The notes under the pieces: model-generated
What the model was told of the DNA's origin: nothing
The model's database searches: none
What the model saw: only the letters and a program-made list of their open reading frames with translations
Program-made: the position numbers and the translations under genes
Assembly: GCA_025453925.1 (NCBI GenBank)
Contig: JALOPK010000028.1
Span: forward strand, 1-17,473
DNA length: 17,473 nt
From: Candidatus Eiseniibacteriota bacterium
GTDB taxonomy: Bacteria > JAFGKV01
Reading direction: 5' to 3'
Part shown: piece after piece, positions 7,026 through 14,643 of the stretch
How the letters are laid out: the number at the start of each line of letters is the position of its first letter
Numbering within the stretch: position 1 is the first letter of the stretch

Positions 7026-7200
7026 AGTACTCGCGTTCATACGCATGGTCACGCACCGAGAGCGACGGGGCGACCGGGCAGCGGGTGAGCGAGGAGGGCA
7101 GATATCCGAGATGATATCTCACCGATCGAACAGTCCGCCGGCTGGCGGACTCGGGATGCAACGGCGGTTGAATGCGATCGTGTTTGTGAATCCGAGTACT
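7026..7200 (-). repeat. Dispersed element copy A, MITE-like, bounded by terminal inverted repeats
   Basis: Read on the minus strand, this ~175-base segment is closely similar to 14414-14579 on the plus strand. Identical blocks of 17, 10, 13, 17, 20, 10 and 15 bases occur in the same order. Both copies begin with AGTACTCGGATTCACAA, and similarity stops at both outer ends. The ends of copy A are inverted repeats: AGTACTCG...TTCA at one end, its complement at the other, about 13 of 16 positions matching. A central palindrome AGATATC-N6-GATATCT is shared by both copies. Copy A alone also has an 8-bp stem at 7132-7151 (AGTCCGCC/GGCGGACT, GGCT loop). No coding capacity is apparent. No clean target-site duplication was found. 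Confidence 0.7.
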
Positions 7201-7273
7201 GAGCACGAGCGGGGGTAACGCCGCGGCGCTCGCCGTCTCAAGCTCGAGGCTGCGCGGAGTTCCCCCGCGCCAC

Positions 7274-12145: not shown

Positions 12146-12165
12146 CCAGAGTAGCCGAAGTGCTC

Positions 12166-13122
12166 ATGCCTGATACGCTGAAACCACCCCATAAACCCAA
12201 GGAGGAGACGCGAGAGGATATCCATACGTCTCGAAAACCCTTGTGGGGTCGGCTACGTTTCTACACTGCGTTCGTGTGGCGCTTTGTGGTGCTGCAGCGC
12301 CCGGAACCGCTCATCTACGGTGTCGCCCTCACGGACCGCTGCAACCTTGCCTGCCGCGGCTGTCACGTCTCCAACACCGGCCGTCCCGATATGAGCTGGG
12401 ATCACCTGGTCACCGCACTGCAGGACGCGTGGAGCCGCGGGTTCCGCGAGCTGTACTTCAGCGGCGGAGAACCCATGCTGTGGCGCGCCGAAGACCATAC
12501 GCTCAAGGACGCGATCGCCGAGGCGAGACGGATCGGTTTCTTCCACGTGCATGTCTACACCAACGGCCTGCTTGGACTTGAACCCTCGGCTGATTTCGTC
12601 TGGGTCAGTATGGATGGGTTGACCGGCACCTTCGATATGCGGCGTGGCAATCACTTTCATCAGGTCGAACACGCCGTTCGCACGGGTTCGCATCCCAGGG
12701 TCGCCGTGATCTATGTGATTGATCGCAACACCGCCGCGGGCGTCGAGCTGTTCCTGAAGTGGGTGGATGAAACGAGATTCCCCATCATCGGTGTGATGTT
12801 CTACTTCCATACTCCCTACTACGGGCGCGACGAGCTGTTCCTGACCGCTGAGGAGCGCGCACCGATCATCGACCGACTACTCGAGTGCATCCGGGCCGGA
12901 CAGCCGGTGCTCAACTCAAGGGCAGGCTTGTCGGCGTTGAAATCCGGCAACTGGCCGCGCCGGTTTCGCGTGGCTTCGGTGAGGGATGTTGACGGCGAGT
13001 CGGTATGCTGTCGCGCCTCCGACGAGGTGTGCGCGGATTGCGGTTACGCGGCGTGCACCGAACTCACTGAGTCTCAACGCCTGCGACCGAGCGCGCTGCT
13101 CGGCATGACGAGGTATTGGTGA
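12166..13122 (+). CDS. Radical SAM protein with Cys-rich C-terminus
   Basis: A 318-residue radical SAM enzyme, numbered from the ATG at 12166 (GTG at 12160 is an alternative; both have only weak ribosome-binding sequences). An N-terminal segment with a hydrophobic/aromatic stretch (RLRFYTAFVWRFVVLQ, about 29-44) may associate with membrane or partner. The cluster motif TDRCNLACRGCH places Cys at 59, 63 and 66, and SGGEP follows at 99-103, the SAM-binding loop. Near the end, CCRASDEVCADCGYAAC gives five more cysteines (281, 282, 289, 292, 297), which could hold an auxiliary iron-sulfur cluster as in SPASM/twitch-type enzymes. From family knowledge it makes a 5'-deoxyadenosyl radical; the substrate is unknown. 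No precursor peptide was seen nearby. The stop overlaps the start of a HemN-like radical SAM gene (GTGA, 13119-13122), so the two are coupled. Confidence 0.85.
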   Translation: MPDTLKPPHKPKEETREDIHTSRKPLWGRLRFYTAFVWRFVVLQRPEPLIYGVALTDRCNLACRGCHVSNTGRPDMSWDHLVTALQDAWSRGFRELYFSGGEPMLWRAEDHTLKDAIAEARRIGFFHVHVYTNGLLGLEPSADFVWVSMDGLTGTFDMRRGNHFHQVEHAVRTGSHPRVAVIYVIDRNTAAGVELFLKWVDETRFPIIGVMFYFHTPYYGRDELFLTAEERAPIIDRLLECIRAGQPVLNSRAGLSALKSGNWPRRFRVASVRDVDGESVCCRASDEVCADCGYAACTELTESQRLRPSALLGMTRYW

Positions 13123-14414
13123 GCAGTTCAGGCCGTTGGCCACTTCGCGTCATCACGCGCACCCTTCGCCGTTACCTCGTGGGGGCTGAACAACGCTGGG
13201 TTTTCGAGCGGCCGCCGCCGGACTGGACCCCGCCGCACATCGCGCGCACTTCGCTGTATCTGCACGTGCCTTTCTGTCGCCATTCTTGTCCCTATTGTCC
13301 CTACACAAAAGTCCCGTATCGCGCGTCACTCATGGAACCCTACACCAGAGCGGCGCTCGCCGAGGTGGACTGGTGGGCCCGTGCAGCTGGACCGGCCGAG
13401 CTCACGAGTATCTACATCGGCGGAGGCACGCCGACGCTCGCGTTGGACGCCGTCGGCCGTGTGCTGACGCGTGTGCGTGAGAAGTTTCGTCTGACGGGCG
13501 ACATCTGCATCGAGACCAATCCCGCTGATGTGGACGATGAGACCGTGCAGCGTTTGCATGACATGGGGGTCGAGCTCGTTTCGCTGGGCGTAGAATCATT
13601 CCGACCAGAGAATCTTGCCGTGCTCGGGCGCGACTACGAGCCCCATATCGCCGAGCGTGCCCTGGCGTTGCTTGCGGGGAGTAGCTTTGCCTCGGTCAAC
13701 GCGGATATCATGTTTGCCCTACCACGCCAGACTGCCGCAGACGTGACTGCCGACTTGGCCCGAGCTGCCCAGCTCGGCGCGGACCAGCTCACCACCTACC
13801 CACTCTTCACTTTTCCATACACCACAGTCGGTAGATACCTGCAGCTGACGGCGGTGCGCATGCCAAACCTGCACATGCGCCAGGCGCACTACCGAGCCAT
13901 CAGCGGATGGTGCACTGAACACGGCTATGCGCGTGTTTCGGTGTGGGGCTTCAAGCGTGGCACCGTCCCGCGCTATTCCTCGGTCACCAGAGATGGCTAC
14001 ATAGGGATCGGCCCCGGTGCTGGATCGCATCTGCCCGACGGATTCGTACTCAACACATTCGATCTCAACAGCTGGATTCACACAGTCTGCGATGGGCGCA
14101 GGGCGATCGCGCTGCGCATGCCGTTCGCCGGCGAGATGTCTGGCTGGTGGTGGCTGTACTGGCGTTTCTACGACACGCACATCCCACTGGATGACCTCGA
14201 TACGGCTCTTGGTAGCGACGCCCACAAAGCCCGACAGTGGCTGAGAGCCGCAGAGCAGGCCGGGTTCGCAGTTCACGCCGGCAGGCATCTTGAGCTCACT
14301 GAGTCGGGCGCATTCTGGCTTCATCTTGCGCAGAACTACTTCGCGCTGAATTATGTGAACACGCTTTGGACTCAGGCACGACGGGAGCCGTGGCCGCACG
14401 CAGTGGCAATCTAA
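13119..14414 (+). CDS. HemN/HemW-like radical SAM protein
   Basis: A 431-residue protein of the coproporphyrinogen-dehydrogenase-like radical SAM group. It has YLHVPFCRHSCPYCPY with cluster Cys at 53, 57 and 60, GGGTPTL at 101-107, ETNPADVD, LVSLGVESF and NADIMFALPRQT, all in family order. A C-terminal winged-helix-like part (HLELTESGAFWLHLAQNYFA) resembles the HemN_C region. The residue after the third cysteine plus one is Pro-Tyr, so the fourth Cys of true HemN (CxxxCxxCxC) is absent. This argues against anaerobic coproporphyrinogen oxidation and toward a HemW-like or different role. GTG at 13119 has GAGG five to six bases upstream and overlaps the previous stop; TTG at 13116 is an alternative. 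With the upstream radical SAM gene it forms a two-enzyme operon. The stop codon coincides with the left end of a dispersed element (14414). Confidence 0.87.
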   Translation: MSSSGRWPLRVITRTLRRYLVGAEQRWVFERPPPDWTPPHIARTSLYLHVPFCRHSCPYCPYTKVPYRASLMEPYTRAALAEVDWWARAAGPAELTSIYIGGGTPTLALDAVGRVLTRVREKFRLTGDICIETNPADVDDETVQRLHDMGVELVSLGVESFRPENLAVLGRDYEPHIAERALALLAGSSFASVNADIMFALPRQTAADVTADLARAAQLGADQLTTYPLFTFPYTTVGRYLQLTAVRMPNLHMRQAHYRAISGWCTEHGYARVSVWGFKRGTVPRYSSVTRDGYIGIGPGAGSHLPDGFVLNTFDLNSWIHTVCDGRRAIALRMPFAGEMSGWWWLYWRFYDTHIPLDDLDTALGSDAHKARQWLRAAEQAGFAVHAGRHLELTESGAFWLHLAQNYFALNYVNTLWTQARREPWPHAVAI

Positions 14415-14579
14415 GTACTCGGATTCACAAGTGCGATCGCATTCGACCGCCGTTGCATTCCGGCCATCTGTGTTGCTCGATCGGTGAGATATCGCAGCGG
14501 ATATCTGCCCTCCTCGCGCCGTGCTGGCTGGTCGCCCCGACGCTCTCGGTGCGTGCCCGTACTTATGAACCCGAGGACT
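14414..14579 (+). repeat. Dispersed element copy B, MITE-like, bounded by terminal inverted repeats
   Basis: Second copy of the element at 7026-7200, in the opposite orientation. Shared identical blocks are 14414-14430, 14435-14444, 14446-14458, 14477-14493, 14498-14517, 14530-14539 and 14541-14555. The two ends are imperfect inverted repeats: the first 22 bases (AGTACTCGGATTCACAAGTGCG) match the complement of the last 22 at 18 positions. Two GATATC sites (14488-14493 and 14500-14505) form the central palindrome. The variable segment 14459-14476 replaces the hairpin found in copy A. It sits between the HemN-like stop codon and the SPFH genes and might act as a terminator or carry a promoter. 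No open gene lies inside. Confidence 0.7.
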
Positions 14580-14643
14580 GAGCCAACGCGCGGGCCACGG
14601 CTCATCCGCAGAACCGTTCTCACTAGACGAAGGAGGTGCATAG

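Follow-up and report, generated by a model that had tools for sequence, protein, structure and literature searches.

A HemN-like radical SAM clade and a specific radical SAM partner recur as a two-gene unit in scattered bacterial lineages

HemN-like enzymes carry out hard chemistry, such as C1 transfer to unactivated carbon, cyclopropanation and ring opening. A contig of a Candidatus Eiseniibacteriota genome (the window, 17,473 nucleotides of JALOPK010000028.1, assembly GCA_025453925.1) raises the question of what such a protein does when its gene overlaps that of a second radical SAM protein. A first-pass annotation, made from the sequence alone, had noted two overlapping radical SAM genes here, the second HemN-like, and both ORFs (g1 and g2 below) are present as it placed them. 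The features on which the analysis turns are the following.

12160..13122, plus strand: g1, radical SAM protein of about 318-320 aa (PF04055, E=1.2e-10; model pLDDT 89.4)
12340..12363, plus strand: CNLACRGC of g1, the CxxxCxxC motif (C61, C65, C68) of the SAM-cleaving [4Fe-4S] site, found in 31/31 pair partners
13006..13056, plus strand: C-terminal cysteines C283, C284, C291, C294 and C299 of g1, likely auxiliary [4Fe-4S] ligands
13116..14414, plus strand: g2, HemN-fold radical SAM protein of 432 aa, a sister family of the menaquinone-methyltransferase-like (MKMT-like) clade (model pLDDT 94)
13119..13122, plus strand: GTGA overlap of the g2 start GTG with the g1 stop TGA, read from the sequence (TTG 13116 is the alternative start)
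13275..13304, plus strand: CRHSCPYCPY of g2, CxxxCxxC followed by PY, lacking HemN's fourth Cys in the family alignment
13785..13805, plus strand: QLTTYPL of g2, which includes the position equivalent to NocN Ser225 in the second-SAM site (sequence alignment)

In the window sequence g1 starts at GTG 12160 or ATG 12166 and stops at TGA 13120-13122; an internal TTG at 12241 corresponds to the start codon of one ortholog. Translation of g2 starts at GTG 13119 or, less probably, at TTG 13116, and stops at TAA 14412-14414. A GTGA stop/start overlap is the usual arrangement in coupled translation. The 4-nt overlap recurs in four orthologs (L051, L053, L055 and L059), which agrees with the translational coupling proposed at the outset. 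The g2 stop codon is abutted by a MITE-like, dispersed intergenic repeat of ~170 bp and may sit in the edge of this element, which lies at 14412-14583 (plus strand) and 7026-7203 (minus strand) of the window. The repeat has imperfect terminal inverted repeats (AGTACTCGG(A/G)TTCA), with 24 matches in its own genome, 14 in the genus sister genome, and none in the family's other genus; an Rfam search of the window gave no match. Two consecutive Band_7/SPFH genes (PF01145; 14644-16589, plus strand) follow downstream of the pair and are not kept beside it elsewhere.

A g2 alignment scanned against 84,980 species yielded at least 47 g2-family loci (L051-L097), in hosts that include Chloroflexota, KSB1, WOR-3, Elusimicrobia, Clostridia and Trichococcus. 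Among these listed loci g1 adjoins g2 in 32, with full-length genes in 30, and the order is g1-g2 in 20 and g2-g1 in 12; recurrence on this scale argues that the pairing is not due to chance. Divergence of the two proteins is correlated (Mantel r 0.80; 0 of 5000 permutations as high, maximum 0.34). The remaining 15 loci have no adjacent g1, and their genomes hold a clear g1 elsewhere in one case (E=5e-101), weak matches in two and none in 12. Some of these genomes are incomplete MAGs, and Alkalibacter and Paraclostridium are isolates. Since most genomes of this kind are free of g1, g2 can evidently act alone in some hosts. The pairing is thus strong and not obligatory: adjacency recurs across distant phyla, but the genes are not locked together as described earlier, given the 15 loci without a neighboring g1 and an order that flips.

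That each gene is found without the other would fit a co-inherited pair whose members act on different substrates, with adjacency reflecting shared regulation such as anaerobic expression. The occurrence of both gene orders, the coupled overlap and the correlated divergence speak against separate substrates, and we regard this as the least probable of the readings weighed here.

Neither the other genome of the window's genus (G001) nor one of its family (G002) contains the g2 family or a close g1. A broader sample of 386 genomes around the window MAG, mostly marked as sharing only its domain, held g2 relatives (E<1e-60) in 8, g1 relatives (E<1e-30) in 10, and both in two: the window genome and a Poribacteria genome (G311, locus L071), with g1 and g2 side by side in opposite order. 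Seven g2 orthologs with 64-75% identity come from Dehalococcoidia, Ornatilinea, another two Chloroflexi, KSB1, Vicinamibacterales and one bacterium without assignment. Their neighbors differ, and all but L054, which is without g1, carry the pair. Such similar orthologs in unrelated lineages, amid unlike neighbors and with a sister genome lacking the pair, point to a mobile, self-contained two-gene unit that has probably spread horizontally. A plasmid search with g2 gave no match, and viral contigs searched with g1 gave only 11 weak generic matches, with the pair absent.

What kind of protein is g2? It has CxxxCxxC at residues 54, 58 and 61 and matches Radical_SAM (PF04055) at E=3.8e-19 (70 bits). 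Its AlphaFold model (pLDDT 94) aligns with HemN (1olt) at Z 30.8 and rmsd 3.5 over 373 residues, with the next entry at Z 15.5, and has the HemN fold over both domains. The extended motif LYxHxPFCxxxCxxCPY occurs in 43 of 47 g2-family proteins and in 0 of 19 MKMT-like and 0 of 17 HemW proteins. Searches of NCBIfam and Pfam returned superfamily-level matches only, and named relatives were each ruled out: HemN (fourth cysteine of CX3CX2CXC in 0/47; TIGR00538 at 96 of 325 bits), HemW (HNxxYW in 0/47 versus 17/17 HemW controls; TIGR00539 at 126 of 205 bits), HutW/ChuW (163 of 400 bits, though the best curated match) and STM4012 (147 bits versus a cut-off of 380).

These scores bear on whether the pair might convert or degrade heme or a porphyrin, in the manner of HemN, HutW/ChuW or AhbC/NirJ. 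The HemN fold of g2, its HutW score (163 bits) and a weak similarity of g1 to NirJ and AhbC in curated family scores lean that way, but g2 falls far under the HutW (400), HemW (205) and HemN (325) cut-offs and lacks both the fourth HemN cysteine and HNxxYW. Moreover, no heme genes were seen beside the pair, and 13 of 27 host genomes, the window's own included, yielded no HemC, many of these being incomplete MAGs. A tetrapyrrole substrate therefore appears distinctly improbable.

An IQ-TREE analysis of the g2 family with MKMT-like, HemW, HemN and STM4012 sequences placed the family, together with an archaeal (L099) and a bacterial (L038) protein, in one clade (100/96) that is sister to the MKMT-like clade (joint clade 99/97); the latter was labeled from PRK08629 scores and published motifs (PMC10320005), with no characterized MenK sequence as reference. 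The archaeal member (L099:740-2071), from a Thermoprotei MAG, has the CPYCPY motif and extends the family to archaea.

Characterized members of the MKMT-like clade methylate a membrane quinone, and MKMT has six signature motifs (PMC10320005). Like MqnK, MenK and MenK2, which are class C radical SAM methylases, g2 combines the HemN fold with a CxxxCxxC lacking the fourth Cys, and it shares two of the six motifs: QxTxYP in 44 of 47 family members in relaxed form (20 of 47 as strict QxTxYPL) and NxFxxxxY in 38 of 47, both absent from the HemW controls. The other four occur in 0, 0, 0 and 1 of 47. Unlike these enzymes, g2 has CxxCPY (43/47) in place of CxxCxF, lacks YFxxxRxE, GxxFxxxYxGGGT and the RxSxG arginine, and has g1 as a partner. 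With four motifs missing or nearly so and PRK08629 at 148 of 355 bits, an identity of g2 with MKMT was ruled out.

A looser connection to quinones would have g2 as a menaquinone-type methyltransferase and g1 modifying the quinone ring a second time. It would suit the sister-clade placement, the two shared motifs, the five UbiA matches in the window genome and a g1 relative that shares an operon with UbiA in G337. Against it stand the four (almost) missing motifs and the hosts: 7 of 27 have no UbiA match, among them three isolates with the full pair (Anaerovirgula multivorans, Terrisporobacter petrolearius and Trichococcus paludicola), so a prenylquinone is not generally available from the host itself, whereas a quinone of exogenous origin could still serve. 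We judge the quinone proposal improbable. Together, the gaps in UbiA and HemC indicate that neither a prenylquinone nor self-made heme is a good common substrate.

By sequence profile, HemN and NocN are the best solved relatives of g2; NocN is absent from its list of structure matches, so the link between the two is one of sequence profile only. NocN residues that contact the second SAM (SAM II) include Y34, Y96, R153, D196 and S225, and R153, in the RxSxG motif, holds the methionine part of SAM II (PMC12871812). Four of these five contacts are kept in the g2 family, with equivalents at Y48 for Y34 (46/46), Y100 for Y96 (47/47), D197 for D196 (47/47) and T/S226 for S225 (44/47). With NosN/NocN g2 also has the HemN fold in common, but the R153 equivalent is L154 (L or M in 38 of 47 g2 proteins, Arg in one), and no thiopeptide genes lie near the pair. 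An arginine occupies this position in HemN and NocN (from alignments) and in most MKMT-like and HemW proteins (from motif counts). Its replacement means that binding of SAM II in g2 may differ or be lost. The missing arginine sets g2 apart and is the main doubt over calling it a class C methylase.

The partner, g1, is a radical SAM protein by its CxxxCxxC and GGE motifs (31/31 pair partners) and by PF04055 (42.3 bits versus a cut-off of 29.5). Across the 31 partners C283, C291, C294, E301, GGE and CxxxCxxC are invariant, and a fourth core cysteine is present as a CC or CxxC arrangement, giving every partner at least four; C299 is not general. All five C-terminal cysteines of the original description are thus present in the window, but only a four-cysteine core is general, and this core would fit a single auxiliary cluster. 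In its model (pLDDT 89) g1 adopts a compact radical SAM fold, for which the best solved matches are BlsE (Z 21.4), SkfB (20.1), SuiB (18.7), Tes, the GDGT synthase (18.6), and viperins (about 18.5), with anSME also near. Its likeness to the SPASM/twitch enzymes and Tes covers fold (Z 18-21), GGE and extra C-terminal cysteines, while g1 is shorter, with a compact four-Cys C-terminal core. No SPASM or maturase model was reached at its cut-off among curated NCBIfam and Pfam families, which matched g1 at superfamily level only. With neither protein reaching a curated family, the pathway is still unassigned, as first described.

These matches could suit a peptide or protein substrate, with g1 as a SPASM-like maturase acting on an unrecognized substrate encoded elsewhere and g2 methylating the product. 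SkfB is the closest profile match of g1 (E=1.1e-18), BlsE, SkfB, SuiB and anSME are near in fold, and NocN, a class C methylase, acts on a peptide (PMC12871812). Fold, however, cannot pick among peptide, nucleotide-type and lipid substrates: the lipid-acting Tes is similar to g1 in both fold and profile, and peptide maturases score equally high. The absence of any conserved small ORF beside the pair in close orthologs, and a cross-phylum spread as two genes, which implies a substrate present in each host, count against a peptide, a reading about as improbable as the quinone one.

In the orthologs with 64-75% identity, the 2.5 kb around the pair hold no conserved third ORF or precursor peptide (≥20 aa), as the earlier remark that the pair has no precursor peptide or familiar biosynthetic partner had anticipated. 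The neighborhood survey proposed with it as a check found pairing that recurs without being constant, and third partners in subsets only, namely an exported SRPBCC-like protein and an XRE regulator. The former (A6) touches the module in four unrelated Gram-negative lineages (KSB1, Vicinamibacterales, WOR-3 and Akkermansiaceae), at these positions.

L053:11296-11922, L056:7361-7975, L063:9442-9999 and L068:11254-11883: SRPBCC-like protein next to the module, in the genomes searched

The placement of A6 differs in each of these four, one being between the two radical SAM genes, with one copy per genome; it is missing from the window genome and most host genomes. It belongs to no Pfam family, and a search of PDB sequences with its profile gave no convincing match; the SRPBCC/START-like call comes from a distant relative in G388 whose match to Polyketide_cyc2 (E=5e-4) is under the cut-off. 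The XRE-type regulator, with a conserved C-terminal domain, lies directly upstream of the pair in four Clostridia loci (L072, L076, L078 and L080), and a related one lies three genes upstream in Heliobacterium (L062), which suggests dedicated control of the Clostridia pairs.

The nearest known arrangement is STM4011-STM4014, a system of unknown function in which a radical SAM protein of roughly 290 aa (STM4011) stands beside the HemN-like STM4012; we saw it in L142-L144. It resembles g1-g2 in that a small radical SAM gene adjoins a HemN-like one. Identity with STM4011/STM4012 was rejected, with g2 at 147 of 380 bits and the g1 profile without similarity to STM4011 at E<1, and no STM4013 hydrolase or STM4014-like partner was seen next to g1-g2. 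The type of arrangement is known, and g2 represents an uncharacterized HemN-like clade that has a distinct radical SAM protein as its partner.

Because the genes stand side by side in scattered, mostly anaerobic hosts with no other constant partner, they are probably a self-contained unit, and a unit of two genes that works across many hosts would need a substrate occurring in all of them. Three features point to a hydrophobic one: the sister relationship with the MKMT-like clade, the exported SRPBCC-like neighbor and a cationic amphipathic helix at the N terminus of g2 in the window and in close orthologs (muH about 0.7, higher than anywhere else in the protein); the signal for such a helix is weak in the g1 family. 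Our preferred reading, held tentatively and at somewhat less than even odds, is that g1 and g2 are a self-contained module, spread by horizontal transfer, in which a class-C-like g2 and an auxiliary-cluster g1 act on a hydrophobic metabolite. The two oxygen-sensitive enzymes probably modify one small, perhaps lipid-like, molecule, and would do so sequentially, as the first-pass annotation suggested. As a branch of the class C radical methylases, g2 would hold one SAM on its [4Fe-4S] cluster, probably with a second beside it, and a methylene or 5'-deoxyadenosyl radical would either transfer a C1 unit to a hydrophobic substrate with sp2 carbons or take hydrogen from it. With its auxiliary cluster, g1 may subject that molecule to a further radical reaction, either preceding or following g2, or it may make the g2 substrate. 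The substrate itself would most likely be a membrane lipid or a small hydrophobic metabolite of wide availability, and not a peptide. The two-SAM chemistry, the step order, and a shared and hydrophobic substrate are what we infer from these comparisons. A bolder version, which we think rather unlikely, is that g1 and g2 alone perform an undescribed anaerobic modification of some hydrophobic metabolite found in all hosts, for instance the acyl chain of a membrane lipid; g2 would then be a new HemN-like functional class that does without the conserved second-SAM arginine.

Annotations do not reveal the pair, since curated models assign both proteins generic names only, and we found no paper on it in open-access PMC text. 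A separate HemN-like clade tied to one radical SAM partner amounts to two genes, small enough to transfer among hosts and test directly, and with cultured hosts of the pair at hand (Trichococcus, Heliobacterium and Terrisporobacter) a search for the product is feasible.

Relatives of g1 also occur in other settings. A second g1-like subfamily (WKCH...GCY.KNRG...C..CGFAAH; L022-L026, L049 and L050) consists of single genes with no g2 nearby, and adjoins lepA in two genomes. In G337 (L047, 5669-9663, minus strand) a g1 relative with 35% identity shares a tight operon with genes for a UbiA prenyltransferase and for a fusion of chorismate-binding and aminotransferase class IV domains, possibly an unusual quinone or aromatic pathway.
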